This document shows, in pieces, positions 10,472-62,760 of a stretch of 64,000 nucleotides of DNA (position 1 is its first letter; every line of letters starts with the position of its first letter). The notes under the pieces were generated by a model. It did no database searches. It was not told the DNA's origin and saw only the letters and a list, made by a program, of their open reading frames with translations. Source of the stretch: Lunularia cruciata. Taxonomy: Eukaryota; Streptophyta; Marchantiopsida; Lunulariales; Lunulariaceae. Both the position numbers and the translations under genes were made by a program. Where the stretch lies: the NCBI GenBank assembly GCA_948567375.1, contig OX419762.1, positions 2,361,001 to 2,425,000 of the forward strand, in the 5' to 3' direction.

Positions 10472-10645
10472 CTGAAACATTGCACATAGACGTAGGTTGA
10501 GTAAGTAGTTGTGATACGTGATGAAAGTAATATGTGAGAGGGCAACTTAGAGATATTCTAGTATATCAAGCCAACTTGAGGAGAAACATAATCTGACAGA
10601 CAAGATATAGGTTAAAACATGTGCAGCAACGAGCTTTAACCGGAC

Positions 10646-15720: not shown

Positions 15721-15915
15721 ATATCTAACACACTCCGATTTTATAATACCTAATTTACATTTAGAGGAAATGTCAGAAAGAACGTGAGGGAGCAAGATTG
15801 TCTTGATTTGAGCAAAGTGAGATAGCTCTTTCTTATCATAGATAGAGACAAAGATATTGAAGTGGTCTTGAGTAATGCAACAGTCAAGATCATCACAATG
15901 AGTGCCAAAATGAGT

Positions 15916-16630: not shown

Positions 16631-16692
16631 ACGGAAGAATTCATTCCTCCAGAGGTCGTTTGTAGAAGGTAGCAGTGCTTTGAAGAATGAGC

Positions 16693-30974: not shown

Positions 30975-31450
30975 ATACCACAACATTTGTAATGCCAAAA
31001 CTAGTTTGCTTGGATGTTGGCAGGGTAGTCTTGATAGTCATAATTATATCGTAGTTGCTCAAAGACTACTTAATGGTGCCAAGATTTTGTGTTATGGCTA
31101 TTGATCACACTATTAGAACTACTATTTGCACCATTAATTGGACCATCAAATGTGCCATTAGTGCTAGATTCCTAACCATCCCGAGGGAATGTGCTTTTGA
31201 AGTGCAGCTTTAATGAAGCTTACTTCTTTGATGTTGAGCCTTCAAGCTCTTGGTTATGGTGGATAGAAGCCAGCAACATGGAGTCTCTTAGCTAGAGTAG
31301 GTGTGCCTTGATTGTATAATTAAAGCCTATTTTTTGCAGTTTATTGAATTGAGAGTTGAGTTTTTGATCTGAGTTGAGTTTGTGATAATTTGATTAAATC
31401 AAAGAACTGAGTCAAAGGGGAAATTGGGTGTAGGAATTATGGGCATTGGT
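30975..31450 (+). mobile_element. 5' end (A1 block and leader) of a fourth A/B-family retroelement
   Basis: The segment aligns end to end with 37637-38139, the A1 block and leader of element A. Shared stretches include GATGTTGAGCCYTCAAG, CATGGAGTCTCTTAGCTAGA and GGGAAATTGGRTGTAGGAA. It then continues into GGTAGTATCTCCATGC, matching the sequence beyond element C's insertion site in A (GGTGGTATCTCCAAGC). It therefore records the uninterrupted leader and shows that the B block is absent from the family's 5' end. Confidence 0.75.
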
Positions 31451-36384: not shown

Positions 36385-37330
36385 CTAATCCCAAGCTGAG
36401 TAATTCCTTTCCGCTCTATTTAGTCTACAAGACACAAAAGCAATGGGATGCAACCTTTCTATGAGTTCTTTTTGTAACACATCTCCAATTGCAAAGTTAT
36501 AAGCATCAAAATCAACCACACATGTTACTTGAGAATCATATGGTTGGATTACTTGAAGAATTGGTCTTGAAGACACCATATGTTTTAGCTTTTGGAATAC
36601 TTCTTTGTGCTTGTTGGTCCATTGAAAGCTCAAGTTCTTCCCCAAGAGATCGGTCAATGGTGCGGTCACATGATCATAGTAGTGGATAAATCATCAATAA
36701 AAACTAGCCAATCCATTAAATGCCCATACTTCAATAGCATCCTTTGGAATAAGCCAATCAGTGATGGTCTTGATTTTCTCCTCTTCCATCTTGATCCCCT
36801 CTGATAGATCTTATGACCCAAGAAGGTAACTTCCTTCTACCAAAAGGTACACTTTGACTTCTTGCAATAAAACTACTATTTTTGTAGTCATCTTAGGACT
36901 TCTCGCACATGATTCACATGTTCTATCTCTATCTTGCTATAGTTAAGATATCATCCAAGAACACCACCATATATCAATCCAATAGTCCATCCAACACCTA
37001 GTGCATCTGATCCATGAAGATGGCTGGAGCATTAGTGAGCCCAAAAGACAAAACCCTCCACTCAAAATGTCTATATCCCTATTGATAGGGATGATGTGCA
37101 AAAGACTACCTTGTGCGGAAGGTAGTCTTTTGCACATCATCTCTATCAATAGGAATTTGCCAATAGCCGCTATGAAGATCCAACTTGGAGAAGTATCATG
37201 CTCCACTCAATTGATCAAAAAATTCATCAATTCAAGGCAAGGGTATGAATTCTTCATTGTCTGTTTATTGAGCCCATGGTGATCAATACCAAAATGAAGC
37301 CCTCCATCCTTCTTTGGAACAAATAGTGTG
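36385..37330 (-). pseudogene. RT and RNase H of fragment D
   Basis: From 37330: RT start, LDLHSGYWQIPID-type palm segment, the FGLTNAPA motif, then in other frames the connection and RNase H (PLTDLLGKNLSFQWTNK, ILQVIQPYDSQ, SCRLNRAERNYSAWD). A local inverted duplication at 37081-37150 lies inside the palm. Multiple frames are required. Confidence 0.75.
37081..37150. repeat. 30-bp inverted repeat inside the RT of fragment D
   Basis: The left arm 37081-37110 and right arm 37121-37150 are reverse complements with one mismatch, around a 10-nt spacer. In the minus-strand frame the right arm encodes IDRDDVQKTT, and the left arm is an extra, inverted 30-bp copy inserted between FRTR and GYRHFEW. 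The insert keeps the frame but adds stop codons. Confidence 0.9.
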
Positions 37331-37632
37331 TTACCATTGGAGTTTGGACTTTGTTAGACCTTTACCATTAACTATGAGACATCATTGATATGTTTTGGTG
37401 ATGGTGCAGCACTTCTCCAAGTGGATTGAGTGGCACTTCTTGACAAGTCTAGTGAAAGAAAGGCTTACTCGTTCTTGGATTGGGTTCTTAGTCGTTTTGG
37501 TGCACTAGTTGAGGTTTTGACTAATCACAATAAAGAGTTCTTGGCAGAGTTTGAAGTCTTATGTGACAAAGGCTTTGATTGATCATCATACTACCTCTTG
37601 AGATCATCCTCAAACATATGGCTTAGCAAAAA
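37331..37632 (+). pseudogene. Element B integrase, 5' fragment
   Basis: Collinear with A's integrase at 51848-52150: the WSLDF block is altered to SLDFVRPL-like sequence, then HFSKWIE, a LTNHNKEF counterpart of the second Asp motif (Asp changed to Asn), and QTYGLAKRVV. The frame is broken by small deletions and stops. Element A interrupts it at 37637 and it continues at 53722. Confidence 0.75.
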
Positions 37633-37636
37633 GAGT
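37633..37636 (+). repeat. Target duplication of element A (left)
   Basis: GAGT here and at 53722-53725. The same 4-bp size as for element B supports a common integrase property. Confidence 0.75.
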
Positions 37637-38081
37637 TGTCACGCCATTTGTAGTATTGCATCTAGATGCTCAGACATTGGAGTTCCAATGATACTAGTTA
37701 ATGGTATTTTGGCAATTACTCATAGACTATGTTTTGATAGCCATATTTCAGGTTTGAAATACTAACTTCATGGCGGAGCCCATTGTCACTTGCACCGTCC
37801 GCACTGTTGGATGTGCCGTCAGTGGGACCATTGGGATGAGATCTAGGTCAAAATCAGGAGTATACCTTAGGAGTGTAGCTCCAGAGAGCTTACTTCTCTG
37901 ATGTTGAGCCCTTGAGTTCCTAGCTAGAGTGGACAGAAAGCTTGCAAGCGTCACATGGAGTCTCTTAGCTAGAGTGGGTGTGGCTTGACTGTAATCAATA
38001 CCTTGTTGGTGGTAAATTGTTGAGGATCAGATCAAGTATTGATCTGAGTTTGATTGATTTGAGTGGTAAACAATCTGATTA
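37637..38081 (+). repeat. A1 block of element A (445 bp)
   Basis: Starts TGTCACGCCATTTGTAG and ends CAATCTGATTA. It matches A2 at 53171-53615, also 445 bp, along its whole length. Unlike A2 it is not followed by the B block; the leader CATCAAAGAAGTGAGTCAGG begins at once. Confidence 0.85.
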
Positions 38082-38134
38082 CATCAAAGAAGTGAGTCAG
38101 GGGGAAATTGGATGTAGGAACTACGAGTGTTGGT

Positions 38135-38139
38135 GGTAT
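38135..38139 (+). repeat. Target duplication of chromovirus C (left)
   Basis: GGTAT here and at 44708-44712. The uninterrupted leader in the 30975 copy reads GGTAGTATCTCC at the same place. Confidence 0.82.
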
Positions 38140-38832
38140 TGTAATACTCCAAGGACAAGGGAAGAGACAAAAGACAGATTGCACACTTAAACATTCGATG
38201 CCCCAAAGGAGCACCTTCTCTTTATTATATAGACAAAGAGGATCTCCTCCAAGGGAGCTCCACCCCTGGATTAATTACTTGGATGGGTGACATGTCTGGT
38301 CTAGGTCTTATCTGGTTGGTCAAACAAGCTTTGAATGGAAGGAATCTTTTAGGGAATCTTCATGTAGGAATCATAGAATCGTGTGAGTAAGGTACCGTTG
38401 GAAAGCTCTCGACAAGACAAAGCAAGGGGGAGGGAAGGCCAGCCTTTCCTTTCTTGGGGGAAGATTTGCACAGTTTCAAGGCCTAATTCATCCATTTAGG
38501 CTTCCAAAATTGCATTCAAAGATTTCAAGCATATTTCGATTACTACTCTATTAGTAGAAGTGCCCTTTTGGTGATACCTCTTTCTGATCTATTTATTCCA
38601 TCATGTGTAACATCCTTCTAGATGTTACCAAACCAATTCTCACCTTTAAATCATATGTCTAGCTATTGGTTCTAAGGTTCTGAAGTCTATTTTGGTTTCT
38701 ACCCTATTAGTAGAAGTATTCTTTTGGTGATACTTCTATCTTATCTATTTTGACCATCATGTATAACAACACTCTAGATGTTACCAAACTGAATTTCACA
38801 TCTAGATCATATGGCTAGCTCTTGGTATTACA
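38140..38832 (-). repeat. 3' LTR of chromovirus C
   Basis: On the plus strand it runs from TGTAATACTCC to GGTATTACA (terminal inverted TGTAATACY). The sequence next to it, GACCTCCCTCCTTTTAAG, is on the minus strand the polypurine tract. It contains an internal imperfect duplication around GTAGAAGTRYYCTTTTGGTG (near 38551 and 38715). Confidence 0.9.
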
Positions 38833-39500: not shown

Positions 39501-40232
39501 CTAGGTGGATGCATTGACTGAATTGTTGTAAGCAAATTCCACGAACGGGAGTAGGGTGTCCCACCTCTCTTGCTCTTCTAAGGTGAAGCCGCGTAACATG
39601 TCTTTGATTGTGCAATTAGCCCGCTCTATTTGGCCATCTGTTTGTGGGTGGTAAGCTATGGACATGGCCGACTTGGTTTTGAAGAAACCAAAGAGTGTTT
39701 GCCAAAACAAACTGGTGAATTGGGTGCCTCTATCGGTGATGAGTACTCTAGACAAGCCATGGTGAGCAAAGACTGCATCTAAGTATAATTGAGCTAGTTG
39801 TGGAGTGGTCACCTCCTTGGTGGTAGGGTGTACATGAATCATTTTGCTGAGCCGGTCCACAAAGACCACGATGGAGTCACTTGAGGTGGTCTTGGGTAAT
39901 TCACAAACAAGATCCATACTCACTTGTTCCCAACGTTGGGTAGGAGTGGGGAGAGGTTGAAGGAGCCCTGCAAGAGCTTGGTTAGAAGCTTTGTTCTGTT
40001 GACAAAGTAGGCAGCTATGCATGTAGTCCATCACGTCGTTGCTCATCTTGGGCCAATAGTAATGGCGCTTGATTGTATCCAAGGTCTTGTCCACTCCGAC
40101 ATGAGTTGCAATGGCCGAATCATGACATTTTGCTAGAATGGTGGTGCGTAATTTTGGGACATTTGGGATCCATAATCTGCCATACCAAAAGGTGAGTCCT
40201 TGGGTGGTGGTGACACCTTTGGATGATTGCAC
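39501..40232 (-). CDS. Integrase of element C
   Basis: About 243 open codons. The zinc-binding region ends with HYYWPKMSNDVMDYMHSC and CQQNKAS (HHCC). The catalytic core has VSMDLVCELPKT (Asp 1), LITDRGTQFTSLFWQTLF (Asp 2) and YHPQTDGQIERANCTIKDML (Glu). It ends at LPFVEFAYNNSVNAST, where a stop precedes the C-terminal region, continued in other frames (39302-39039: FNVGDQVWLSTTNL and HPVFHVSILHRY). It integrates cDNA in the nucleus. Confidence 0.9.
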   Translation of the reverse strand: MQSSKGVTTTQGLTFWYGRLWIPNVPKLRTTILAKCHDSAIATHVGVDKTLDTIKRHYYWPKMSNDVMDYMHSCLLCQQNKASNQALAGLLQPLPTPTQRWEQVSMDLVCELPKTTSSDSIVVFVDRLSKMIHVHPTTKEVTTPQLAQLYLDAVFAHHGLSRVLITDRGTQFTSLFWQTLFGFFKTKSAMSIAYHPQTDGQIERANCTIKDMLRGFTLEEQERWDTLLPFVEFAYNNSVNAST

Positions 40233-40457
40233 TTCTATAATTTGTGGATCAGTTTTTGTAGCAGTCAGAATCTCTAGCCAGAATTCAAGGTTAATCTTTA
40301 ACCTCTATCACCAAGTTGTTTACCATTGGCATGCAGGTGAATGCATCTGCAAGTTGCTTCTTACCTTCAACATAGGTGATTGTCATGTTGAATCGTTGTC
40401 GCCACTCTGCCCACCAAATTTGGCAACGAGATAGATCCTTTTGCGTCTCAAGGTAGA

Positions 40458-41570
40458 CTAGAGGTAGACTAGAGGTAGACTAGAGGTTTGTGGTCTGTCT
40501 CTACTACAAATGCCTTCTCGCCCAGATAGTGCTTCCAATACTTGGTTGCTAGAACGATGGCCAACTCTTCTCGTTCTGTGGTGTGGGTAGTTGCGCTCTA
40601 CCGGTAACAACTTTTGAGAGAAATATGCAATTGGATGCCATCCGCCATGCCACTCTTGTTGTAGGAATGCTCCTATTGCTACGCTTGATGCATATGTAGC
40701 CAACTTGATTGGATGTTTTGGGTCATATCACTTCAAGATTGGTGCATGTAGCAAGGCGGCCTTCAATTTTTGAAAGGCCAATTCTTGTGCAGTTTCCCAT
40801 GTCCACTTCTTCCCCTTGCCAAGTAGTGCCGTTAAAGGCTGTGCAACCTTGGAGAAGTCCTTGAAAAATCTATGATAGAATCCCATCAACCCCAAGAAGC
40901 TCTTAAGTTGAGTCTGATCTTTTGGGGCACTCCATTTTTGAATGACCTCTATTTTATTTGTCAATACTTGAATACCTTTTGCACTTACTCTATGCTCCAA
41001 GTAGTCTACTTCAGACTTGCCAAACTCACACTTTGAGATTTTGGCGTACAATTGATTTTGTCTTAGAATCTAGAGGACCTCTTGTAGATGTTGTTTGTGT
41101 TCTGTCATCGTGCTATTATATACTAAGATATCATCCAAGAAGACAATAACCAACTTATCCAAGTATGGATGAAATATGTCATTCATTAGACTCATGAAAG
41201 TGGCAGGTGCATTGGTGAGGCCAAAAGGCATCACAAGATACTCAAAGTGGCCATACTTGGTTCGAAAGGCAGTTTTGTACACATCCTCGTCTGCAATTCG
41301 GATTTGATTGTAACCGCTCCGCAAGTCCAGTTTGGTGAAGTATCTAGCTCCATGGAGTTGATCAAATAGGTCATCTATGCAAGGTAAGGGGTATTTGTTC
41401 TTCATTGTTTGTTGATTGAGACCCCGATAGTCAATGCACATGCGCATTGTACCATCCTTCGTCTTCACAAACAAGATAGGGGCCCTATATGGTGATACGT
41501 TAGGTTGGATGGACCCTTTTTGTAGCATCTCCTCAATTTCAGTCTTACACTCCTCCAACTCATGAGGTGA
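40458..41570 (-). CDS. Reverse transcriptase and RNase H of element C
   Basis: RT (41558-41070) is open and typical: [72 protein letters not shown] and the catalytic [11 protein letters not shown]. The connection (41051-40728) has [13 protein letters not shown] and [17 protein letters not shown]. RNase H (40703-40458) has [20 protein letters not shown] and [14 protein letters not shown]. Frames change at about 41060 and 40710. Confidence 0.88.
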
Positions 41571-42273
41571 TAGGCAATATGGGGCCTTACAAGGAGGTGT
41601 CTTCCCCGGTAGTGTCTCAATTTTGTGATCTACTCACCTTTGTGGTGGTAATCTTGAGGGTAGATCATCGAGAAACATATCTTGAAACTCATCCAACACA
41701 TCCTTTAATTTCTTAGGAATTTATCCATTGAGTTGTGAACTCTAGAATTCTCTTATTAGACCCATAAAACAAACAATTGCCGTCCATTTGACATATAGAG
41801 GCAATTTCTGCCTGTGTGATTTTTCTTTAACCCCAATGATTGACCATTGGTGGGTTCTCACTACTTTCTTCCTCCAATCCACCATAGGGTTGTACTACTC
41901 CATCCATGGCATGCCTAAAATTGCATCATAACGAGTTTATTATATCACTCGCCACTCAATTGCTTCCTGATATTCTCCTATAGAGAGGGTTACCCGTCTA
42001 GGTAATGATTCAAGCCTCTCTATTTGCCCATTAGGTAACTCTACTTCTTCACTCCCATCTCTCTCTAGATCCATTCCCAATCTTATTGTAGCAGAGCGAG
42101 ACAACAAATTCTTTGTTGCTCTCGGATCTATAATACTCTCACTTGATTACCTTCTAGGATTCCATTCACGACAATCAATTGTGAGGTTGCTTTTCTGGAT
42201 CTTTGCGCGTTATTCTTCTTCCTTCCCTCGCTTCTTTGCTTCCTTATTGAGCCAATAAGGCCACAAGGTACAT
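41571..42273 (-). pseudogene. Protease region of element C
   Basis: A decayed aspartic-protease segment. The active site survives as DSRATKNLLSRSATIRLG near 42120 (DSGA changed to DSRA), followed by LPNGQ and AILGMPWM-like sequence near 41910. Several frames are required. Confidence 0.6.
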
Positions 42274-43292
42274 TTACTGGCAATCTTTGTTTTCCAAAGT
42301 GATTTCCACCTCCTCCTCTTCAATGTGCCTCTCCATGTTGTTCAAAGATTGCCTATACGAAGGCCGAGTGCCTCTAGGGAAACAAGTGCGACAGTTGGTA
42401 GATATGTGCACAATACGGCCACAATTGTAACAATGACTTTGTTTCCTCGAGTCCTTCCTCCTCATGGGACTCCATCTCTTTGTTCTTCTACCCGTCCCCA
42501 CTTCCCTTGAAGCGGGCGTGCTCCTCGATCCTAGAATCAAAGGTTGCCCAATTCCATCGGTATTGGTCCACCCATATGTGGCATTTCTACCCAATAATGT
42601 TGAGGTGGAACTACTCCTTCACCTCCACCTAATGCTTCTGCTATTCTCTACGCACAAGCAATGGCTTCAAATACCGTGCGAGGATTTTGCACCATGACTT
42701 CTTGGCAAATCCGCTCTTTCAACCCTCATTTGAAATTATCGAGAGCTTCTCTTGGACTCATGTTGGTAATTGCAACTTGTAGATCCAAAAATGCCTCCAC
42801 ATACTCTTGTACGTTATTCTTCTGTCTCAATCTCCATAGTCGGGTTTGAGCCATTTGCACAAAATCCACCAATTGGAAATTCTTCAATAGTCCTTCTTGC
42901 ATTGCTATCCATGTGACCTTCCTTCTCTTTGCCAACATGGATCGTTCACAAGCATCATACCATGTGAGGGCTTTATCGATCAAATACCCACATGCAAACA
43001 TGCATGTAGCATGCTTTGTGATCTTTGTTGAGAACAATTGGAAATATTGATTCATTCTCAAGATCCAATTTTCCACTACTCCCATCGTACACTGCCCCTT
43101 GTAAGGCTCAATGTTGCAGGTCTTCTTCATCCGGAATAGCAATGTAGCTTCATCGTTGATAGGGTTCGTAGGCACGGGTGCCTCTCCAAGTACTTCAGTC
43201 GTAAGTATTGGGTTTTGAGACGGCTCTTCTTCTTGCATGGCTTGATCATTCTTGAGGATTTGCACTTGACTTTGTAATGTCTCCATGGTCAT
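42274..43292 (-). CDS. Gag of element C
   Basis: The capsid-type domain (43292-42726) includes NWILRMNQYFQLFSTKITKH, ALTWYDACER and RLWRLRQKNNVQEYVEAFLD, the Retrotrans_gag pattern. A stop or frame change follows DNFK. The nucleocapsid part (42594-42274) has the zinc knuckle CYNCGRIVHISTNC (CX2CX4HX4C) flanked by basic residues. It assembles virus-like particles in the cytoplasm. Confidence 0.85.
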
Positions 43293-43950
43293 CTTAATCT
43301 CTCAAAATTCATTCAACATCCCTTGCATTCCTTGCACCAGCTCTTGCAATTGTGGATCCATGGTTCCTGCAACACTCAATTGCTAATATGTACTTCAATA
43401 CAAGGTCAATATAATCACCCTGGAAGGTGCATGAACTATCGGAACTACCATTGGGACCTTAGAAGCTATCACTTGTTGATAATACTCATCACCAAAATTC
43501 CTGACCATAAAATCTCTAAATATCACTTTCGATCTCACTACATAATGGATTTCTACCTAAGTGTTGAAAAGGAGAGGATTTGGGACATTCATATCCATTT
43601 TATCATAATAGAATGTAGATTGTCAAATCCAACTCTCTATCATATATCACCACAGGTAGAATCACCGGGTTTGGTGAGTTCATCACTCTGTTCATGAATT
43701 TTGCACCAAAGTAATAAACTAGCGATACCCTCATTTGCTCACGCTAGATGTACATAACCTTGATGTGGAATGGGTTTGAGAATGGAAAGCTAGGTGCGGG
43801 AAATTGTCCTCCCGGTGCATCCATCCTTCCACTCTCTAAAGTCCTTCCTAAGTCTAGTAATTACTCTATGTTCTCCACATCAAATTACTCAATTTCAGTA
43901 GTTCGTGCTATTCCAAGAAGGATGATCCATTCTCTTGGACTAAAACACTC
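43293..43950 (-). other. 5' leader of element C
   Basis: About 650 bp of untranslated sequence between the primer-binding site and gag; no reliable coding. Confidence 0.6.
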
Positions 43951-43963: not shown

Positions 43964-44707
43964 TGTAATACTGCAAGGACAAGAGAAGAGAGAAAAGACA
44001 GATTGCACACTCAAACATTTGATGCCCCAAAGGAGCACTTTCTCTTTATTATATAGACAAAGAGGATCTCCTCCAAGGAAGCTCCACCATAGGATTAGGG
44101 ACACAAATAGGTGACATGTCAGCAAGCTCCACCCTTGAATTACTTACTTGGATGGGTGACATGTCTGGTCTAGGTCTTATCTGGTTGGTCAAATAAGCTT
44201 TGACCGGAAGGAATCTTTTAGGGAATCTTCTTATAGGAATCTCAAAATCATGTGAGTAAGGTACCATTGGAAAGCTTTTGATAAGACAAAGCAAGGGGGA
44301 GGGAAGGCTAGCCTTTCCTTTGTTGGGAGGGGGGGGGGATTTACACAGTTTCAAGGCCTAATTCATCCGTTTAGGCTTCCAAAATTGCATTCAAAGATTT
44401 CAAGCATATTTCGATTCCTACTCTATTTGTAGAAGTACCCTTTTGGTGATACCCCTTTCTGATCTGTTTAGTCCATCATGTGTAACATCCTTCTAGATGT
44501 TACCAAACCAATTCTCACCTTTAAATCATATGTCTAGCTATTGGTTCTAAGGTTCTCAAGTCTATTTTGGTTTCTACTCTATTAGTAGAAGTACTCTTTT
44601 GGTGCTACTTCTATCTTATCTATTTTGACCATCATGTATAACATCACTCTAGATGTTACTGAACTGAATTTCACATCTAGATCATATGGCTAGCTCTTGG
44701 TATTATG
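43964..44707 (-). repeat. 5' LTR of chromovirus C
   Basis: Matches 38140-38832 with few changes. It contains an extra block near 44078-44122 that duplicates the AAGCTCCACC and GGGTGACATGTC segments. The terminal bases are altered (GGTATTATG instead of GGTATTACA). Confidence 0.9.
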
Positions 44708-45700
44708 GGTATCTCCAAGCTCGATGGATCGTGATGTCTCGATTGAGTAGTTTAGACTTCCTTAAGAGAGAGTGTGTGAGGAAGCACTGGTAGGATTTGG
44801 AGCAAAGGAAGAAGGAATTTGAAGCGGTAGTTGTGATTTTGAGCTCAAGACCAATTTGTTACGAGTTGAGCTCAGAAACTAAAATTGAAGGTGGAATTGA
44901 GAGCAAATCCTCATGAATTAAAGATTGGACAAAACCTATTTTTCCAATTTGGCTCAAGTGAAGAGTTAGCAAAGGATTTAGTGGTCAACCATTTTTAGGG
45001 ATTTACATCAGATTTACGTCACATTTTGTGAAGGAGTTACATCAAATTTTGGTGAAAAGAACTTGAAACCGATCCTCGGTGATCCTCGTAGCTAAGGAAG
45101 TAGATAGGTACTCAAATTATGTCAAATGCCAAATGGTGGCAGAGTCAGTCCTGTGTTGATTTATGAGATAGAGGGTTGTTGATTAACATTCTTGTGATTG
45201 GACCCCCTCCATTATTTGCTTCCTGTTTATGCATCACGTTTGTGTGAGGTGCCCTAAATTTTGAGCGTTGGTGCTTTGGTGTGCTCTCGATAGTGATGCT
45301 AGAGTGATGACTAGTCAGACTATCTTTGTTTCTCTCCGGTGAGGTAGGAAGTGATGACCTACAGAATGAGTGTTGTGATGGTAGGTTATAGGTCACCCTT
45401 GCCCCTAGTGTAGTTGTCTCAGTTAGAGTTACATTAGTGGACAATGTTGAGTTAGTTTTGGCACTTGGTGGTGCTTGGTTAGTATTGGCACTTGGTGGTG
45501 CTCGATTGGTGTTGGCACTTGGTGGGGTACTTGTTGTTGCAGTTTGCGGTTACAGTTGTAGTTGTAGTTACTTTATCACGATGGAGTTCGTGGGGGATTT
45601 CGGAGGAATTAGCTCTACATTACACAGTGGGTTTACTCGGAGTGGTGCTTGATATCAACCTGTATCTCAGGTCCCGGTGAGGGAAGAGATGGACTTTGAG
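44708..45700 (+). other. Leader of element A
   Basis: Continuation of the leader past the C insertion. No confident protein. It includes three 27-bp repeats (45458, 45485, 45512; TTGGCACTTGGTGGTGCTY) that would read VLALGGARL if translated. A gag start may lie near 45680. Confidence 0.45.
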
Positions 45701-46930
45701 TTGGAGTTTGACATAGGAGCTGATCCAGTTGAGAGCGCACTTGTTGTGTCCGCATCGTTATTTTGGGATATGGATGAGATTTATGGGGCCTTCAAAGGCC
45801 CTAGGCATTACTCTTGTACAATGAGTACCAATGAGTTGGATGACTTCATCTAGGAGTTTGGTAGTTGGTGTGATTTGCAATAGATGCGGAACCCGACTTT
45901 GTTCACACTCTTCATGGCATGGAAGAGGTTGTTTCAACACTTGGAGGGTCCGCCAATGGACGACTACCATGAGTTCAAGAGAGTTCATTTGGAGGAGATT
46001 GAGTTTGGAGACAATATTGGTCTCCAAACTATATCTCTATCACTTCAGGCTCGGTAGCCAGGAGTAGATCGGCTGTACCTACAAGTTCTAGCTTGAGTAG
46101 TGTTGGTGGAGCTAGTGGATGTGCACTAGCTGGAGTGAGTGTTACCACAAGTGGAGGTACCGCTGCAAGAGGTGGTGTGGAACCGGGGTTTAACCCCATA
46201 GTGGAGTTCTTCTTATGTTTGAGGTAGAACTACCAAGGACTGCGGATTGACAAGTTGAGGAGCTTGCAAGAGTTCCAACAGAAGGCTAGAGAGAGCCTAC
46301 ATGAGGCATACACTTGCATGAGGTGACTGATCAGTTTTACTTAAGGAGTTATTGAGGCCCAAGCAGTCTAGTTTTGGTATAATACAGGGAGTTGCGACAT
46401 AAAGTTGGACAAGGAGTTATGACATAGAGATTGGATAGAGAGTTGCAACATAGAGTTTGTGATGCTACATTGTTACAAGCTACTTTGCCTACTTTGGCAG
46501 TGGTCTTTGGTTTGGCTGAGCGTATTGAGCTCAACATGGTGGAAGAGAGAGTGGTGACATCTGGATTTGGTAGGGAGACCTCATCCACAACTATTACTCC
46601 TTCTAGAGTGCAGTAGAATGCACCACACCCAATTGATTTTTGAGGACAAGGTGGACAACCCAAATCCTATGGAGCGAGTGGATGGCCTAGTGGAGTTAAA
46701 CCCTCACCTTCATTTTTGGGTCAGCAACAGCCAATGAGTAGTGGTGTTGCTTGTTGGACTTGTGGTGGACCTCACAATCGGAGAGAGTGTAATCAAGGCA
46801 GTGAACCTGATACCTCGAGTGCATCATAGCCAGCACAGAGGCAGTGTGAGCATTGCCACAGATCTGGTCATACTAGTGACCGGTGCTTTGACCTACACCG
46901 GAAGTTACGGAGTGGTAGGGCTTCTATGGC
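45700..46930 (+). pseudogene. Gag of element A with two zinc knuckles
   Basis: The capsid-like part includes MRNPTLFTLFMAWKRLFQHL, GPPMDDYHEFKRVHLEE, and later NYQGLRIDKLRSLQEFQQKA and RESLHEAYTCMR. Two nucleocapsid knuckles follow: CWTCGGPHNRREC (46752-46790, CX2CX3HX4C) and CEHCHRSGHTSDRC (46845-46886, CX2CX4HX4C). Stops at 45851, 45882, 46227 and 46828 are TAG in positions where Gln is likely. Confidence 0.75.
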
Positions 46931-48480
46931 AGGTAGTAGAGGAGCTCCAATTCATGGAGGACAAGGTGGTAGAGGATCTACACCTAGTAGGGGTGCAGTA
47001 CCTGCCCTTACTTCCAATACAGCTATGGCTACTCGGATTGAGCAATTGGAGAAGAGATTAGCTAATATGGCTATTGCTCAAAGGAGATCAAATTCGGGTG
47101 TTGTGGCTTCCACCTTATATATTGGTGATAGAGATGCTTTGGATTTTATGTGCGGAGCAGCACAAGAAGATGCATTTGCAATAGTGACTAGGAGTGCACA
47201 TTGCCTAGAGAAGCATCAGTGGAATTGGACCCACAAAGAGGAGAGGTTGGGAGACAAGTCAGACTTCCCTAGTCTTTCATGCTATCTGAGGCATTGCAGA
47301 CAACATCCATGGTTCTTACACATCCTAGTGCAGGTGTGGTAGGTGGTGATGGAGTGCATGATGGACTTCATGCTAGTCAACCACCTGCTACTACACAGAC
47401 TGAGTCTAACATGATGTTGGGAGCGGCTCAACTGATTATGCGGCATCCTTTGTTTTTGGCTAGTGACATGTTTACATTGGGAGTTGACCTAGCCCCAATG
47501 TTCTAGTTGGCTGCCACACTTTGTGAGAGTAGGGATGATGCGGTTCCTACTACTAGGGCAGAGGTGGTTGGTAGTGGAGTTGACTTGGTTGAGGAGCATG
47601 AGATCTGTTCAGCGACAAGTGGTTTATGGCAGGCAGCAATGACTAGATTGGAGGAGTTGCCAGCTAGACCGGCCTTTGAGAGAGCACGGTTCACACTTGG
47701 TGTTGTCCTATTGAATAACCAAAGGAGGATTTTCCATTTGGTGGAACCTTAAGGGAAGGTCTATACACCATAAAGAGTCTTGTTAGACTCTGGTGCGCAT
47801 CCCCTTATGTTGGAGAAGGCGGCAGTGGTCGGTTTGGAGTTACGAAAGACCGATGTAGAGAGGTGTCCATTTCAGATCCAAATATCTCTAGGTGGTGGTT
47901 TGACATAGTACATCACACATGGAGAGCTTGTGGTCCAAGTTCAGCCTGGTCATCCGACTGATAGCTCGGTGGTGAGAGCTCATACTATTGCGACAATAGC
48001 TGAGTCATATGATGTGCTAGTTCGGAGAGCAATGTTATACCCCATAGGTTTCAGCATTGACTATTGGGAGGAGATAACCTCCTATAGACCTGGTTGGCAG
48101 TCTGGTGAGGGACGGGTATGTCGCCTACTAGTACGCTTTAGTAGTGGTAGTCTTGGCTCACTATAGTTTGGGACCATAGAAGCATCAGTTTTAGCTTTCA
48201 GTGGTGCAGTTACTTGGCCTAGTGATTTGTTGGGGGGGAACGTCCATACACATTATACTCTAGTACCAGAGGAGATCACTCAGATTTGGAGTACAAGTGA
48301 AAATTGTTCCATCTACCTTGGATGTTCCATTGTGGAGTTTAGAGGAGGCATTGCAACAACATGTAGATCGGTTGGTGCAACAGGCTTGGAGTAGAGCCTT
48401 TGTACCATCAGGAGATGAGTGTGAGGATGAGCCTCTAGAGGAAATTGCTTTGACACCTCTAGATACCACACTCATTGCTT
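46931..48480 (+). pseudogene. Linker and aspartic protease of element A
   Basis: Downstream of gag a Gly/Arg-rich stretch (RGAPIHGGQGGRGSTPS) leads to a coiled segment (TRIEQLEKRLANMAIAQRR). Near 47783-47797 the sequence encodes LDSGAHPLMLEKAAVVGLEL, a retropepsin active site (DSGA). The following segment, PFQIQISLGGG then VVQVQPGHPTDSS, fits the protease body. A linker (48297-48482: LWSLEEALQQHVDRLVQQAW) connects to the methyltransferase. Confidence 0.7.
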
Positions 48481-48505
48481 GGTAGTATCCAATAGAGGGG
48501 ATATG

Positions 48506-49461
48506 TCTATTGGAGTTGTTTGGTGGGATTAGCACCAGACTAGTTGCAGTATTACAAGCGGGTATACAAGTAAAGAGGTACTTATATGTAGAGAGAGATG
48601 AGACTGCTAGGCAAGTCTCTCTACATCATGTGGCACACTTGGCCCATTGGTATCCGGAGTTATTACCGATGGTAGCAATCAGAGGTTACCAGGAGGCCCT
48701 ACCAACAAATATTTCCTTAGTGGGGGCGCATGACCTAGAGAGACATAGGCCTATTCACTTGGTGATTTCTGGATGGCCATGTCAAGGACATACACGTGCG
48801 GGCCAAGGTTTGGGTCTTCAAGATCCTTGGTCTAGTGTGTTTTGGGAGATTTTATGGATACTATGATATCTCCAGGTTCATCAGTCCATTTCTCCAACTT
48901 ACCTTTTGAAGAACATGCCTTTGATGGGTGATTCTTGCACTAGAGTGGTGGTGAGTACACATCAGGTCCATTCTTGGATGGAACCTACTATATTGTTAGA
49001 TGCAGCTAGAGTGAGATCACGGGCTCATTATCTTCGTCTTTGGTGGACAAACCTCTCACCCAAAGAGGTTTTACAGCGTGCTTATGATGGGATTCAATGA
49101 CTTGAGCACATCCTTGTTGATGACATCTTGGATGTTGGATGTCAGTCTCAAACAGTGCTAGTGACTGATAGGTCACCTATGGCAGTGGTGAACCTAGTTG
49201 GACAACTTAGAGCCGCATTTCCCACACTCATGAGTTTCCCATGCTCTCATGCGTTTGGAGAGACAGGACCTAGACTTGTTTGGGACTCACAGTTACAACA
49301 GTTGGTGGAGCCCAATGTTGATGAGAGAGAGCAGGCAATGGGTTTTTGCACCAGTATTATCGCTATTCTAGCAGTGTCAGAGGCATCCAGGCATCAAGTG
49401 TTAGGTCAGGCTATGGACCTAAACTCTTTGACCTGGATTGTGAGCCTTGGCTTGGTAGAGT
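48506..49461 (+). pseudogene. C5-cytosine DNA methyltransferase domain of element A
   Basis: About 318 codons with the ordered motifs of DNA (cytosine-5) methyltransferases. Motif I is LLELFGGISTRL (SAM binding), motif II YLYVERDETARQ, motif IV LVISGWPCQGHTRAGQGLGL (catalytic Cys at about 48780), motif VI YLLKNMP (ENV expected; Glu is Lys here), motif VIII RAHYLRLWWTN, motif IX-X EPNVDEREQAMGF and RHQVLGQAMD. It lies in the polyprotein between protease and RT and would methylate DNA cytosine, possibly the element's own cDNA or target chromatin. In-frame TGA codons at 48864-48866 and 49098-49100 replace probable CGA (Arg). Together with the motif VI change, these make this copy inactive. Confidence 0.88.
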
Positions 49462-50020
49462 AACGTAGGATGCGCTTGATAGTCATCACCACTCGGACAC
49501 TTGGGAGCCTTGTGCCGATTGAGACAATTCAAGCACATGTTGGGAGTAATGGACCAAGTAGAGTTGGTATTCTTGGGACACAACTAGTAGCTACTAGCCA
49601 AAGTGGTCTACTTGGAGTCCATTCAAGTGAGCGTGGGTTACTTGGATTACACCCTTGGTCCACTTGGGATGCAACTAGAGGACGTGTGGAGCTTGCAGCC
49701 AGAGTGGAAGGAGTTTTTCAAACAGAGGTTGGAACCTCTAGTAGTCGGGGGCATGACACTATTGCTCCCAAGGGCCCTGTGTAGCAACCAGTCAACACGT
49801 CTTACAACACTCCTACGACAGTTACAGAGGATACTTGGGAGCCAAATCTTGGACCCAAGCTTACTGGAGAGGAAAGACGGAGGGTTTGGAGGTTCTTGAG
49901 GAGTCACACGAGTTGTTTGCCTTCAATATGAAGGATTTGGGTGCTCTGAAGGGACCTAATATACGGATTGAGCTGACTAGCAATACACTAGTTTTCTGAT
50001 GTCCTTATTGCTATAGTGAC
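49462..50020 (+). other. Linker between methyltransferase and RT in element A
   Basis: Open in parts (49470-49784) but of low complexity and without a known domain. The RT N-terminal segment begins near 49890 (EVLEESHELFAFNMKDLGAL), which is typical of the start of gypsy RT. Confidence 0.45.
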
Positions 50021-51290
50021 ATGGAGAGGACATTGATTCAAAGCAGGAGTAGTGATCTTTTTGAGGCTTGTTTGGTGGAGATTTCACATGGAGAGTATGC
50101 ATCAGCAACAGTGATACCAGCCAAGAAGGATATGCATGGCAACTATATAGATAGGCGGATGTGTGGAGATTACCATCCTATCAACCAACAGACCAAGGCT
50201 GATTGGTATGCCATGCCTACACCGGAGGAGATTTTTTATGCAATTAGGTATGCAAAGGTGTTTAGTACTTTGGATCTTCAAGCGGGATATCATTAGTTGC
50301 CAATTAGGGAGGATGATAAGTCCAAGAAAAAATTTTGTGCTATTGATCCTCATGGCAAGGATGTGTTATATCAATGGAGGTTCTCATTGTTTGGGTTGAA
50401 GAACGCTCTTGCTGAGTTCTAGAGGGTCATGGATAGGATCCTAGCTAGATTGGATTTGCTCAATGCTATATTGATGACATTTTTGTCTATAGCACTACTA
50501 TGGAGGAGAATGAGAGATAGTTGTTGGAGGTGTTTGAGAGATTGAGATCTCATGGACTCAAATTACATCTTAGGAAGTGTAGGTTCTTCCATGAGCAAGT
50601 TGAGTATTTGGGTCACACTATCTACCCCGGAGAACTTGGTGTTCAACAGACCAAGGTGGAGACTACTGCACATATTCCTTGGCCTACGGATGTGACCAGA
50701 ATGCGAGTGTTCCTTGGGTTGGTGAACTTCTATCGCTGTTATGTTAGAGGATTTAATGCCATTGCCAAGGCCTTGATGAAGCTGACCAAGCTTACACAAG
50801 AGTGGTGTTGGGGAGATGAGTAGGAAAGAGCTTTTGTGGAGCTCAAGGAGAGGTTGACATCTACTCCCATTTTGAGGAGACCAATTAGAGGACGACCATT
50901 TCAGGTTCATACTGATTGGAGTATGTTGGGGCTCAAAGCGGTGCTCACCCAACATGATGATGAGGAGAAGGAGTTTGTGGTGGCCTATGCTAGTCACTCC
51001 AACAATTCAGCGGAGGGAAGTATAGTTCATATGAGGGAGAGTGCTTGGTAGCAGTTTGGACAATAACACATTTCCAATGTTACCTATTTGGTAACCCCTT
51101 CACTCTCATCACTGATCATCAACCGCTGAAGTGGTTGATGGAGTCCGACAAGCTTTTAGGGAAGCTTGCACGATGGGCTTTGATTTTATAGGAGTATGAT
51201 TTCACGGTTGTTCATAGACCTAGAGTGGTGAATTGTGATGCAGATGAGTTGAGTAGAAACCCATGTCCCAACCAATAGGATCAGACTGGA
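50021..51290 (+). pseudogene. Reverse transcriptase and RNase H of element A
   Basis: RT has ASATVIPAKKDMHGNYIDRR, CGDYHPINQQTKADWYAMP, FSTLDLQAGYH (then TAG for Gln), FSLFGLKNA and the catalytic CYIDDIFVYS near 50466. RNase H has FQVHTDWSMLGLKAVLTQHD, VVAYASHSNN, PFTLITDHQPLKWLM and EYDFTVVHRPRVVNCDADEL. TAG stops at 50294, 50420, 50518, 50821 and 51189 all sit where the family has Gln. This is the RT most closely matched by the 62085-62760 fragment. Confidence 0.85.
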
Positions 51291-52396
51291 GCACATTGGC
51301 ACGGTGAGACAAATGAGGAGATGGTGCCAGGTTGGCATGCATCTGCCTTTTTGTGTATATTTTTTGAGGCTTTGGTGGTATCTCTCTTAGCACATACAAG
51401 AGGAGTTATGGAGGTCATAGATCCAGAAAGTGAAGATATTGGTATAGTTCAGCGAGACGTTCATGATGATGTCTTAGTGATGGACTATCTTTGCACTAGT
51501 GTTGTGGGTGGCACAGTTGGGGCTAAGGAGACAGTCCGTGTTCTTCAACGAGCCAGACGGTTCAGATTGGAGGGCACACACCATTTGCGTGTATGGGAGA
51601 TAGTAGAGTGCTAGTAGTACCACTTCCATCTTAGAGACCACAGTTGGTCCGTCATGCTCATGAGGAGCTAGGATATTTTGGAGTAAAGCATACATATAGC
51701 TTACTCCAAAGTCATTATTGGTGGCGCGGTATGTAGACCGGGGTACAACAGTTTGTTGCTAGATGTGGTTTGTGACCGAGTTAGAGCATCATTCAATACT
51801 CCTACGCCACCATTACATCCATTACCTATCATGGGATTGGGTTACAATTGGAGTTTGGACTTTGCTGGACCTCTATCGTTGTCTGGGAGACATCATCGGT
51901 ATGTTTTGGTGATGGTGGAGCACTTCTCCAAGTGGATTGAGTTGGTGGCACTTCTTGACAAGTCTAGTGAAAGGACAACTTACTTGTTCTTGGAGCAAGT
52001 TCTTAGTCATTTTGGTGCACCAGTTGAGGTTTTGACTGATCATGGTAAAGAGTTCTTGGGAGAGTTTCAAGTCTTGTGTGACAAGGATTTGATTGATCAC
52101 TATACTACCTCTCAAGATCACCCTGAGGTAGTTGGCTTAGCAGAGAGAGTGGTTTAGATAGTGAAGAGATGATTGCAAAAGTATGGTTTGCAAAGAGGCC
52201 ACTTGGGAGATTGGGATCTCCAATTACCTTGGTTGGCCATGGGCTATCGGTTCAACCGGCAAGCCTCATTAACATCCTTCTCTCCTTACTCCCTACTCTA
52301 TGGACGAGATCCAGATTTACCTGCAACCATTTGTCAAGATGCTACTGAAGTTTTGGACTTGGATGACCCAGATGTATGGATGATTGCATGTTCTTA
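51291..52396 (+). pseudogene. Integrase of element A
   Basis: The N-terminal zinc-binding region appears around 51620-51780 (frames RHAHEELG, then LLQSHYWWRG, then VTRCLVC-like). The DDE core is YNWSLDFAGPLSLSGRHHR (Asp 1, codon near 51858), VEVLTDHGKEFLGEF (Asp 2 near 52038) and GLAERVV (Glu near 52143, D to E spacing of about 35). The downstream part has LPWLAMGYRFNRQASL and the FSPYSLLYGRDP signature. A TAG at 52155 replaces Gln of RVVQIVK. This DDE enzyme, not a tyrosine recombinase, is what the element encodes. Confidence 0.85.
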
Positions 52397-52418
52397 GCGA
52401 GCAGAGATCTTTTGGAGA

Positions 52419-53033
52419 GTGATACTGATGGTCTTTGAGAACTTGGCGATTGCTCAGCATAGAGATACTTTACGCAATGCTACAATTCAAGGAGGAGGTT
52501 ATAGACCCTTGATCCGTCAATTTCATCCAAGAGATTATGTATACCTACATCAGACAACACCGATGATACTTGATATTTTTACAAACCGCACTATCTTGAG
52601 AGTGCGTGAGGTTTTTCCATCTAGAGTCCTTGTGTTGGAAGGATATGATGGTGTTGTTTGGAAGGATCATGTGCGCAATTGTGTGCCATGCCACCTCCCA
52701 AACATTGATGGTATTATTGACCCGAGCTTGACACTTGTACATGTAGGTTTGAGGTGTATGTTATATGGCTCTTCTAGTGGAGCTGCTACTATGTTAGTGT
52801 GTGATAGTTGTTTGAGAGTATGGCATATGTCATGTATGACTCCTCCCCTCATGGTGGTTCCTCAAGGACAGTGGTTATGTCTTAGATGTACTTGCCCTAT
52901 AACTAGTTCATTCTTTATATGGTATAGATTGCAGACAGGCAACTCACAATGGGGCTCCATAGCACCCAGCCTCTTGATCTTTGCCCATCATAGAGTATAC
53001 CATATACTGAGAGTAGACGGCTATATGGATTAG
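52419..53033 (+). pseudogene. Integrase C-terminal part and PHD-finger-like module of element A
   Basis: About 204 open codons. The first 80 residues have FHPRDYVYL and FPSRVLVLEGYDG, the usual integrase C-terminal fold. Residues 113-157 follow the PHD consensus: CMLYG (second Cys is Tyr), then MLVCDSC, H136, C139, PPLMVVPQGQWLCLRC, giving C-x2-(Y)-x11-C-x2-C-x4-H-x2-C-x14-C-x2-C. PHD fingers read histone H3 tails, so it may act as a targeting module. The copy in B shows the same order. Confidence 0.75.
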
Positions 53034-53066
53034 AGAGACCTAATTGCCAACTAGGCGGGCAATTGT

Positions 53067-53170
53067 GGCACTTTAGAGTCTATGTATAACTTATGTGTGA
53101 GTTGTGCTTCTATTGTGTATGATGTTGACAACAATCTATGTTGTGTATCAATATATATACGCACGACAAC
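53067..53170 (+). repeat. B1 block of element A
   Basis: About 104 bp, from GGCACTTTAGAGTCTATGTA to ACGCACGACAAC. It is repeated as B2 at 53620-53721, and lies directly before A2. Confidence 0.85.
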
Positions 53171-53615
53171 TATTATGCCATTTGTAGTGTCATATCTAGA
53201 TGCTCGGACATTAGAGTTCCAATGATAGTAGTTAGAGGCATTTTGGCAGTTACTCATAGACTACTTTCCGATGGTCAGATTTTAGGTTTAGGGTACTGAC
53301 TCCATGGCGAGGCTCACCATCACTTGCACTGTCTGCACCGTTGGGTGTACCATCAGCGGGACCATTGGGATGAGACCTAGGTCAAAATCAAGAGTATACC
53401 TTGGGAGTGCAGCTCCAAAGAGCTCACTTCTTTGATGTTGAGCCTTTGAGTTCCTGGCTAGAGTGGATAGAAAGCCGGCGAGCATCACCTAGAGTCTCTT
53501 AGCTAGAGTGGGTGGGGTTGGACTGTAATTAGTGCCCTATTGTAGGCAAATTGTTGAGAATCAGATCAAGTATTGATCTGAGTTTGATTGATTTGAGTGG
53601 TAAACGATCTGATTA
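53171..53615 (+). repeat. A2 block of element A (445 bp)
   Basis: Matches A1 (37637-38081) over its full length. It begins TATTATGCCATTTGTAG where A1 has TGTCACGCCATTTGTAG, and ends CGATCTGATTA. Confidence 0.88.
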
Positions 53616-53721
53616 TTATGGCATTTTAAAGTCTATGTATGACTTATGTGTGAGTTGTGCTTCTATTGTGTATGATGTTGACAACAATGTATGTTGTGTA
53701 GCAATGTATATACACATGATA
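53616..53721 (+). repeat. B2 block of element A
   Basis: Matches B1 (GGCATTTTAAAGTCTATGTA onward) and ends ACACATGATA immediately before the target duplication GAGT. Confidence 0.85.
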
Positions 53722-54545
53722 GAGTGGTTTAAACAGTGAATAGAGGATTGCAAAAGGATGGTTTGTAGAAAGGCCACTTGGGAGATTGAGTTCTCCAATT
53801 ACTGTAGTTGGCCATGGGCTATTGATTCAACCGGCAAGCCTCCTTGGTGTCCTTTTCTCCTTACTTTATACTCTATGGATGAGATCAAGATTACCTATAG
53901 CCGTTTGTTGAAATATTACTGTAGTGTTGAACTTGGATGATCTGGATGTATGGATGAGCGCATATTCTCAACTGATAGAGATCTTTCAAAGAGTGATACC
54001 AATGGCCTTTGAGAGCTTGATGATTACTCTCAACATAGGGATACCTTACGCTATGCTACCATTTGAGGAGGAGGTTATAGACCTTCAACCTGATTTCATC
54101 CAAGTGACTATGTATATCTACAACATATGCAACAATGACACTTGATGTTTCTATAGGCCACATTATCTTGAGAGTGCATGAGGTTTTGCTATCTTGAGTC
54201 CTTGTGTTAGAAGGACATGATGGTGGCATTTGGAAGGATCATGTTTGCACTTGTGCACCATGCCACCTCCCACACATTGATGGTATTATGGACCCAAGCT
54301 TGGCACTTGTACAAATAGGCTTGAGGTGTATGTTATACGGTTCTTTTGGTGGAACTGCTATTATGTTAGTGTGTGATAGTTGTTTGAGAGGATGGCATAT
54401 GGCATATATGACTCCTTCCCTCATAGTGGTTCCTCAAGGATAGTGGTTATGTCTTAGATGAACTTGACCTGTAGCTAGTTCATCCTTTCTATGATATAGA
54501 TTGTAGACAGGTGACTAGTGATGAGGCTTGATAGCACCCAGCCTC
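53722..54545 (+). pseudogene. Element B integrase 3' part and PHD-like module
   Basis: Continuation of B after element A. AGAGTGGTTTAAACAGTGAA aligns with A's RVVQIVK segment, then the gene runs parallel to 52160-52960. The PHD-like module (54327-54460) has CMLYGSFGG, MLVCDSCLRGWHM (last Cys replaced by Tyr), PSLIVVPQG, then TAG for Gln and WLCLR followed by TGA. It is heavily decayed. Confidence 0.75.
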
Positions 54546-55281
54546 CTGATCTTTTGCCCACCATAGAGTATACCATATACTTGGAGTAATTGGCTATTTG
54601 GAGTTAAAGGGACCTAATCGCTAGCTAGGGAGCAGATTGGTGCACTTTAGAGTTCATGTATGACTTATGTATGAGTTGTGCTTCTAAAGTGTGTCATGTT
54701 GATAGTAATGTATATATGCACTACAACTATCATGTCATTTGTAGTATCACACCTAGATTGCTCAGACTCTAGAATAGAAGTGCTAGTAGTCAAGAGTATT
54801 TTGGTAGTTACTCATAGATTATTTGTTGATGGTCAAATTTCATGTGTAAGATATTGACTACATGGTGTGGCCTATCATCACTTGCATCATTCAGACCATT
54901 GTGTGTGGCGTCAATGGGACTGTTAGGGTTTGAGACCTAACTTGAGTCCAAAGGGTATACTTTCAAAGTGAAGCTCCAGAGAGCTCACTTCTCAGATGTT
55001 GACCTTCAAGTTCTTGGTTATGATGGACAGAGGCCGGAAAGTGTCACTTGGATTCTCTTAGCTAGAGTGTGTGTGGTTTGATTGTAATCATTGTCCAATT
55101 GTTGGTAAATTATTGAGTGATAGATCAAGTACTGAGTATTGAGTTTGATTCAAGTTTTGTAAAAAAATTGATTTATTGAGACACTTTAGAGTCCATGTAT
55201 GACTTATGTATGTGTTGTGTTTTTATAGTGTGTAATGTTGAAAATGATGTTTATTATTTAACAATATATATATACATGACA
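54546..55281 (+). repeat. 3' end of element B: B1-A2-B2
   Basis: B1 at 54639-54727 (GTGCACTTTAGAGTTCATGT), A2 at 54728-55175 (TATCATGTCATTTGTAG to TTGATTTA), B2 at 55177-55281 (GACACTTTAGAGTCCATGTA to TATATACATGACA). This is the same order as in A, at an independent insertion, so the layout is a family property. Confidence 0.82.
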
Positions 55282-62055: not shown

Positions 62056-62084
62056 AAAGTGAGGTGTCAGCCGGTTAGTTGCTA

Positions 62085-62760
62085 TGCCTACACTAGAGTA
62101 GATCTTTGATACGATTGGGTATGCAAAGGTCTTTAGTACTTTGGATCTTTGAGCATGATATCATCAATTGCCAAATTAAGAACAACGACATGTCCAAGAT
62201 AACAATTTGTGCTATTGATCCTCACAATAAGGATGCATTGTATCAATGGAGGCTTGTACCATTTGGGCTATAGAACACTACTATCAAGTTCTAGAGGGTC
62301 ATGGACAAGATACTAATAAGATTAGATTTTCCTTGGTATTATATTGATGACATTTTGGTCTATAGCACTATTGAGGAGGAGCATGAGCAATATTTGTTGA
62401 AGGTGTTTGAGAGATTGAGATCTCATAGACTCAAATTACATTTTGGGAAATGCAAATTCTTCCATGAGCATGTTGAATATTTGTGTCACATTATCTACCC
62501 TGATGGACTTGATGTTTAGCAAACCAAGGTGGAAATTATTGCATGAATTCCTGAACATACAGATGTGAGTAAAGTGCAAACATTTCTTAGGTTTGCAAAC
62601 TTCTATTGCTTATATGCTAAAGGATTTAGTGTCATTGCCAAAGCCTTGACAAAATTAACAAAACTTATACAAGAGTGGTGTTTGGAAGATGAGCAATAGA
62701 GAACTTTTATAAAGATCAAGGAGAAGTTGACAATTGCATCTCTTCTTAGGAGACCAAGCA
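62085..62760 (+). pseudogene. RT fragment of the A/B retroelement family
   Basis: Collinear with 50210-50885 of element A: PTLE then VDL, GYAKVFSTLDL, AIDPHNKDALYQWRLVPFGL, the catalytic YYIDDILVYST, LKLHFGKCKFFHEHVEYL, then TAG for Gln before QTKVEI, and KALTKLTKLIQEWCLEDEQ. It has no gag, methyltransferase or ends. It is joined abruptly to R3 on the left and to the inverted-repeat arm on the right. Confidence 0.85.

Follow-up and report, generated by a model that had tools for sequence, protein, structure and literature searches.

Background

The published element closest in kind to the one described here is KnitGypsy-Dnmt3 of the charophyte alga Klebsormidium nitens, a Ty3/gypsy element reported in 2018 whose polyprotein contains a DNMT3-type domain (de Mendoza, PMC5890265). 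According to the legend of Fig. 4 of that paper, it unites gypsy enzymes and DIRS-type repeats. When its enzyme was expressed in yeast, no methylation was seen, a result that the authors regard as inconclusive. The same paper describes SymbioDIRS-Dnmt3 of the dinoflagellate Symbiodinium, which also carries a DNMT3-type domain and has repeats in the order A-coding-B-A-B, and for this element de novo CG methylation was shown in yeast. A 2025 survey places such elements in "streptophytes and dinoflagellates" (PMC12344493), and a 2019 paper says that they are missing in land plants such as tracheophytes (PMC6338049).

In this work, we analyse a region of the liverwort Lunularia cruciata (called the window below, meaning the whole stretch of 64,000 nucleotides), for which an earlier note had proposed a cytosine methyltransferase inside a gypsy-type retroelement. 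The note held that such captures were reported only from algae and dinoflagellates; the 2018 cases agree with this, but the present family belongs to a liverwort and extends the published cases that we found to land plants. Since DNA methylation is the chief way in which plants silence retrotransposons, an element with its own methyltransferase is a paradox, and land-plant elements could help explain how a genome parasite copes with DNA methylation.

Ty3/Gypsy bursts account for most of the larger genome of Lunularia (Linde 2023, PMC9985172). The families of that study may include the methyltransferase-bearing one, which may therefore belong to the bursts that enlarged the genome; the main text contains no word starting with "methyl", and the domain appears to be undescribed there. 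The accessible parts of reviews on Marchantia, on bryophyte epigenetics and on land-plant transposable elements make no mention of DNMT elements, and we found no published description of one from a liverwort or moss in a search that lay mostly outside subscription papers. DNMT3-bearing gypsy elements have been known since 2018; the liverwort family, with its UAG CAR YYA junction, its split repeats and its PHD finger, appears to have been previously unnoticed.

Organisation of the window copy

The features of the window copy are listed in Table 1. An additional piece of the element at 44846-45015 was aligned by blastn with the genomic copies L010 and L021; the 5' repeat A1 was not found in the same comparisons. 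No Pfam family matches the gag end at 46830-47342 at E<=1.

Table 1. Features of the methyltransferase-bearing element and its neighbour in the window
Feature	Position	Strand	Basis or remark
Decayed methyltransferase-bearing Ty3/gypsy copy, aligned part to repeat B2	45069..53713	+	blastn with L010 and L021 as queries, 85-90% identity
gag end with two CCHC zinc knuckles (CWTCGGPHNRREC, CEHCHRSGHTSDRC)	46644..47342	+	ORF list, by eye
Retropepsin active-site motif D-S-G-A-H	47786..47800	+	by eye; counterpart in L010/L014 LLD(S/F)GAQPLMLG
DNMT3-like C5-cytosine methyltransferase domain, free of indels but with four in-frame stops	48444..49457	+	profile and L010 alignment; open counterparts in L010 and L014
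In-frame UAG separating methyltransferase from RT, followed by CAA CCA (CAR YYA context)	49782..49784	+	conserved family-wide
Reverse transcriptase end and RNase H remnants	50521..51051	+	PF00078 (24.6 bits, below its cut-off), PF17919, PF17917
DDE integrase core (rve)	51687..52157	+	PF00665, 46.6 bits
PHD finger, 3' of integrase	52779..52889	+	PF00628, 33.1 bits; 40.9 bits in L014
Repeat B1	53062..53168	+	90.7% identical to the B repeat of L010
Repeat A2	53177..53615	+	79.1% identical to the A repeat of L010
Repeat B2, 3' end of the element	53615..53713	+	90.9% identical to the B repeat of L010
Second copy of the same family, 3' end fragment with its own B-A-B block	53718..55272	+	blastn with family copies

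Further fragments of the family, consisting of pieces of repeat A, a 3' end and part of pol, lie at 31195-31380, 37327-38139 and 62080-62755. Close to element fragments, at 38532-38826 and 44400-44701, there are about two copies each of nearly the same 156-bp tandem unit.

The methyltransferase domain

The domain was located with a profile made from 11 related retroelement rows, none of which is from a liverwort. In a search of frame +2 with stops written as X, the window copy scored 344.7 bits over model positions 3-345, while the top domain score in 50 codon shuffles of the same frame was -3.6. With protease and RT on its two sides, this confirms that a cytosine methyltransferase lies within a gypsy-type element. 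The interval originally proposed, 48506-49461, does fall on the domain, but the true start is 62 bases earlier. The earlier note had placed the domain on the strand and in the frame of the polyprotein apart from stops; the strand is right and the domain is free of indels, but the frame of the retropepsin is disturbed in this copy. It had also suggested the Pfam family DNA_methylase (PF00145) as a check. Our own profile supplied the match, but PF00145 itself matched one of three stop-delimited pieces, with 18.2 bits against a cut-off of 22 bits, which reflects the damage to this copy and the divergence of the family.

The window methyltransferase is 90.2% identical to that of L010 over 1,095 aligned bp with 0 indels, and its frame is interrupted at 48483 (TAG), 48864 (TGA), 49098 (TGA) and 49461 (TAA). 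The window copy is dead and unable to make the methyltransferase.

In alignments of 14 and 69 rows, the blocks that we take to be motifs I, II, IV, VI, VIII and X, all of them claimed at the outset for the window domain, are conserved in its relatives, and motifs I, IV (with the catalytic Cys), VI (Glu-Asn), VIII (RxR) and X keep their unrearranged order. The catalytic Cys, Glu-Asn and RxR residues are retained in nearly all aligned rows, while 5 of 14 diverse rows have another residue in place of the Pro that precedes the catalytic Cys in motif IV. Among solved structures compared by sequence and fold, DNMT3A or DNMT3B ranked first in all four comparisons, and DNMT2-type enzymes were poorer matches (about 2e-5). 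The element enzyme is DNMT3-like in sequence and in predicted fold.

The family in the Lunularia genome

A PF00145 profile search of the Lunularia assembly itself (565.8 Mb, 74 contigs) gave 2,161 loose candidates, of which 123 were scored, all above the cut-off. By an eye count, 114 of the 123 start at profile positions 44-50, as in the element, and many lie in long open frames. Lunularia therefore holds at least 114 element-type matches among those scored, whereas K. nitens is described as having fewer copies than Symbiodinium (PMC5890265). From the 114 matches we took 20 loci as 10-kb stretches, mostly picked for long frames, and 241-base junction stretches from 20 more. All 40 belong to the methyltransferase-bearing family, and in all 40 the methyltransferase match leads into RT through one and the same junction; the domain in the window is therefore no chance insertion. 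The earlier note had allowed for a missing profile match or an insertion confined to one copy; instead, the match is present and the domain is fixed in every further copy sampled. The methyltransferase is a fixed part of a high-copy Ty3/gypsy family.

Open methyltransferase frames, which the note had proposed to look for, occur in further copies such as L010 and L014, with PF00145 scores of 30.5 and 31.6 bits, respectively. L009 and L010 have open reading frames of 1,428 codons that run from gag to the junction, with pol broken. Conversely, L013 and L014 have frames of 1,209 and 1,142 codons followed by 1,037 in-frame codons encoding RT, RNase H, integrase and PHD finger, with gag broken; L014 has Pfam matches to RVT_1, RNase H, H2C2, rve and PHD. 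No copy is open from gag through PHD among the 20 fetched 10-kb loci, which counts against the explanation that we prefer below. The same assembly also contains methyltransferase genes of the host type, namely a DNMT3-like gene, a rearranged DRM and, by eye, a chromomethylase-like exon (L001, L002 and L003), a set in keeping with a non-flowering land plant.

Repeats, ends and element class

A plain LTR structure was rejected by self-comparison, which showed repeat A alone (about 449 bp) at the 5' end and the order B (107 bp)-A-B at the 3' end. This 3' end was found in 19 of 20 copies, L017 not being covered. The full 5' repeat A is present in 17 of the 20 copies; L010 has 76 bp of it, and L016 and L017 have none. 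Within one copy, A1 and A2 are 95.5-99.7% alike (eight copies with parts of both in one locus), and the insertions are therefore of different ages.

The Ty3/gypsy order of protease, RT, RNase H and DDE integrase is found by Pfam in L014 and the window, the protease being recognised by its motif only. The element ends in TG...CA, and 16 of the 18 copies with both ends have exact 4-bp target duplications (the exceptions are L021 and L013), within the 4-6 bp usual for Ty3/gypsy. The two identical full-length LTRs of such elements are, however, absent, as the repeats described above imply. Behind A1, no clear match to a tRNA primer binding site was seen by eye.

The split direct repeats (A-coding-B-A-B) are common to the DIRS order and the Lunularia family. 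DIRS elements, however, use a tyrosine recombinase and make no target duplication, whereas the Lunularia family has a DDE integrase and 4-bp duplications. SymbioDIRS-Dnmt3 likewise differs from it in being a tyrosine recombinase element (PMC5890265). The Lunularia family thus resembles KnitGypsy-Dnmt3 in joining DIRS-kind repeats to gypsy enzymes. It differs in host, a land plant instead of a charophyte, and in having the UAG CAR YYA junction and the PHD finger, neither of which is mentioned for KnitGypsy-Dnmt3 in the accessible text of PMC5890265 ("PHD" has 0 occurrences); this is a comparison by description. A PHD finger is present in REM1 of Chlamydomonas, and a search for literature on PHD-finger gypsy elements and REM1 returned nothing.

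The UAG junction

TAG ends the methyltransferase frame in 41 of 41 copies (the window, 20 of 20 long loci and 20 of 20 fragments), and the six bases after it fit CAR YYA in 39 of the 41, with L023 and L051 as exceptions; note that the 40 genomic copies are close relatives taken from one match list and are not independent. In the window copy this further in-frame TAG is a feature of the whole family and no sign of decay. Past the TAG, 8 of the 20 long loci keep RT open in the unchanged reading frame for 150 codons or more, and the remainder are decayed there.

An independent element, L115, on the 9.3-kb contig CADCWO010000201.1 has the same arrangement. Its methyltransferase is 52% identical, its gag-protease-methyltransferase frame ends in TAG CAA TCA, and 908 codons of RT, RNase H and integrase, 64% identical, follow in the same frame. 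The UAG CAR YYA junction is conserved in two independent lineages, the Lunularia family and L115. In tobacco mosaic virus, the CAR YYA context is needed for UAG readthrough, which reached 32% in one assay (PMC2754532).

We infer that the junction serves programmed readthrough, with Gag-Pro-MTase as the main product and RT-RH-IN-PHD in a minor one. Among named bryophyte proteins, P0001, P0002, P0003, P0007, P0009 and P0012 end 52-56 residues past the aligned domain. In the gene models P0006, P0008, P0011, P0013, P0014 and P0030 (Sphagnum), the methyltransferase continues into RT; these models could either lack the stop or splice past it, and may speak against readthrough. RNA structure as a stimulator was set aside because the 140 bases folded 3' of the UAG in one copy, L014, showed nothing unusual (z 0.77).

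Relatives, architectures and trees

A search with the L014 methyltransferase found 79 proteins, including those of Calypogeia fissa (70% identity), Marchantia polymorpha (57-70%) and Sphagnum fallax (48%). The remainder are mostly metagenome proteins, with Monoraphidium and Cymbomonas last. Identities to liverwort elements reach 72%. With a divergent row as query, 175 proteins were found, and the best 120 listed contain Scenedesmus and Haematococcus. An alignment search aimed at short proteins yielded 159, and its best 120 include Riccia sorocarpa, Marchantia paleacea, Sphagnum troendelagicum, S. tenellum and Closterium; it also matched a Chrzof1 gene model, whose code we read as Chromochloris. 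Among the matches listed (79 of 79, 120 of 175 and 120 of 159), most of which carry no organism label, there is no named hornwort, fern or seed plant and no named Klebsormidium protein. The close relatives in M. polymorpha, a genetically tractable model, make the paradox testable.

The methyltransferase domain is present in all 307 collected proteins. Their architectures include RT-RH-MT-IN-PHD (90 proteins), PR-MT (32), PR-MT running into RT, RNase H or integrase (6) and the domain alone (112). As judged from these proteins, there are two main architectures: in type I, found in bryophytes and others, protease and methyltransferase precede RT, and in type II, found in green algae and many others, the methyltransferase lies between RNase H and integrase. 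Type II elements such as P0112 of Scenedesmus and P0181 of Haematococcus share with the Lunularia family the methyltransferase clade and a gypsy organisation with RNase H, integrase and PHD finger, but they encode the enzyme in one open frame between RNase H and integrase, whereas in Lunularia it stands between protease and RT, before the stop. The type II gypsy polyproteins (for example, P0058, P0112 and P0181) form a large, partly green-algal group with a PHD finger, 90 of them with the full order.

The methyltransferase tree splits nearly as the architectures do, with support of 98/90 for the type I side with Closterium and 99/84 for type II (88/68 in a second tree). Clean agreement was rejected because of P0041, in which the methyltransferase precedes RT yet which groups with type II. 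The methyltransferases of the retroelements group in a single clade, set apart from host DNMT3 by a long branch, in a tree with two host rows and eight bacterial outgroup rows for which the tool warned of long branches meeting. The trees point to no particular donor of the element enzyme. A recently acquired bacterial or viral gene was rejected as a candidate: 46 loci on viral contigs are 24-45% identical, mostly over a partial domain, and among 36 loci on genome contigs the near-full-length matches are 22-25% identical, L115 (52%) being evidently a eukaryotic retroelement. The contig of L115 is assigned to a Synechococcales cyanobacterium bin, which consequently holds a eukaryotic gypsy-methyltransferase element as foreign DNA.

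Selection and methylation

Among variants shared between copies (21 rows), the methyltransferase has 35 synonymous and 44 nonsynonymous ones; synonymous changes are more frequent than expected, with omega about 0.48, although recurrent deamination blurs the classes. In the same rows, and with values likewise disturbed by deamination, omega is 0.47 for gag, 0.36 for the protease part, 0.32 for the linker and 0.59 for pol. Single-copy variants are nearer neutral (omega 0.69-0.85, 21 rows). Purifying selection on the element is indicated, as it is reported for KnitGypsy-Dnmt3 (PMC5890265).

Transitions in 20 copies number 467 at 8,496 CG sites (0.055 per site), 604 at 15,858 CHG sites (0.038), 300 at 48,787 CHH sites (0.006) and 218 at 68,206 A/T sites (0.003). 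This excess indicates that the copies are, or formerly were, methylated at CG and CHG, which would be expected from host silencing and is no proof of self-methylation. The CpG observed/expected ratio is 0.43-0.53 in the element, similar to the 0.44 of a neighbouring gypsy element of the window in which no methyltransferase was seen.

Proposed function and alternatives

Our preferred explanation, to which we assign a probability of roughly 60%, is that the dead copy in the window belongs to a high-copy liverwort gypsy family that encodes a Gag-protease-DNMT3-like polyprotein, with UAG readthrough to RT, RNase H, integrase and PHD finger, and whose enzyme methylates cDNA of the element itself or its fresh insertions. 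If the junction works as we read it, most ribosomes would stop at the UAG, and the methyltransferase would be made in Gag amounts and packaged. The packaged enzyme would then add 5-methylcytosine, probably at CG, to the cDNA or the new insertion. Such methylation could shield the cDNA or mark it as self, so that the element would be tolerated in a heavily methylated genome, and the PHD finger might assist the choice of chromatin at integration. The enzyme probably serves the element because it is kept across liverworts and Sphagnum and, elsewhere in the polyprotein, in algae. Methylation of cDNA or fresh insertions would be the simplest function because the particle is the site of cDNA synthesis and the enzyme would lie in the Gag-level product. 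Against this explanation, in the type II algal elements the enzyme belongs to the Pol part and no stop intervenes, which means that supply at the Gag level is not universal. Also counting against it are the negative yeast result for KnitGypsy-Dnmt3, the replaced Pro in motif IV, the ordinary RNA folding after the UAG in L014, the CG and CHG decay that host silencing would produce, and a CpG ratio like that of another gypsy element in the window.

A wider scenario, which we offer tentatively, is that a single ancient DNMT3 capture gave rise, in the green lineage, to a clade of gypsy elements with a PHD tail and DIRS-like repeats. Its methyltransferase domain would later have moved, to the protease side in bryophytes and their kin and to the integrase side in green algae. 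The first branch would have kept a leaky UAG and with it an enzyme at the Gag level which, as a particle component, methylates each new cDNA before PHD-guided integration.

It is also conceivable, though unlikely, that the methyltransferase limits the element or its relatives by helping to silence integrated copies, which would keep the copy number bearable for the host. The discussion in PMC5890265 names this possibility, and the decay at CG and CHG, far above that at CHH and A/T, is the mark of methylated cytosine. The CHG part of the decay, however, indicates host enzymes of the chromomethylase kind, a similar CpG deficit occurs in a gypsy element without the domain, and the copy number is not low.

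Somewhat less probable again is a role away from DNA cytosine, in which the domain would methylate RNA (the tRNA primer or genomic RNA) or merely bind nucleic acid in the particle. The long branch from host DNMT3, the variation in motif IV and the lack of activity seen for the Klebsormidium enzyme (PMC5890265) are compatible with such a role, but the near-universal retention of the catalytic residues and the poorer match to DNMT2-type enzymes argue against it.

Morozov and others (PMC6338049) have published the hypothesis that the methyltransferase is kept because it protects the host cell from DNA viruses. This appears very improbable here, since they link the loss in land plants to a lack of large DNA viruses, yet liverworts and Sphagnum do have such elements. 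Finally, the idea that a methyltransferase gene of host or bacterial origin landed by chance in a single gypsy copy can practically be dismissed, given the common junction in the sampled copies, the identical protease-methyltransferase order in other liverworts and the distance of host DNMT3 and DRM in the tree.

Other features of the window

On the minus strand, the window contains a host-like gene block at 6802-11948, with an NB-ARC domain at 9800-10546, a repeat-like ORF at 6802-7962 and an ORF at 11082-11948 that has hydrolase-like motifs by eye and no Pfam match. The block presumably resembles the liverwort hydrolase-NBS class. Also on the minus strand, the region 16169-18735 gives a weak GIY-YIG match (21.0 bits, below the cut-off) and looks RT-like by eye, possibly a Penelope-like element. 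The neighbouring gypsy element mentioned above occupies 39501-43301 on the same strand and has RT, an integrase with H2C2 and, by eye, a gag-like ORF.
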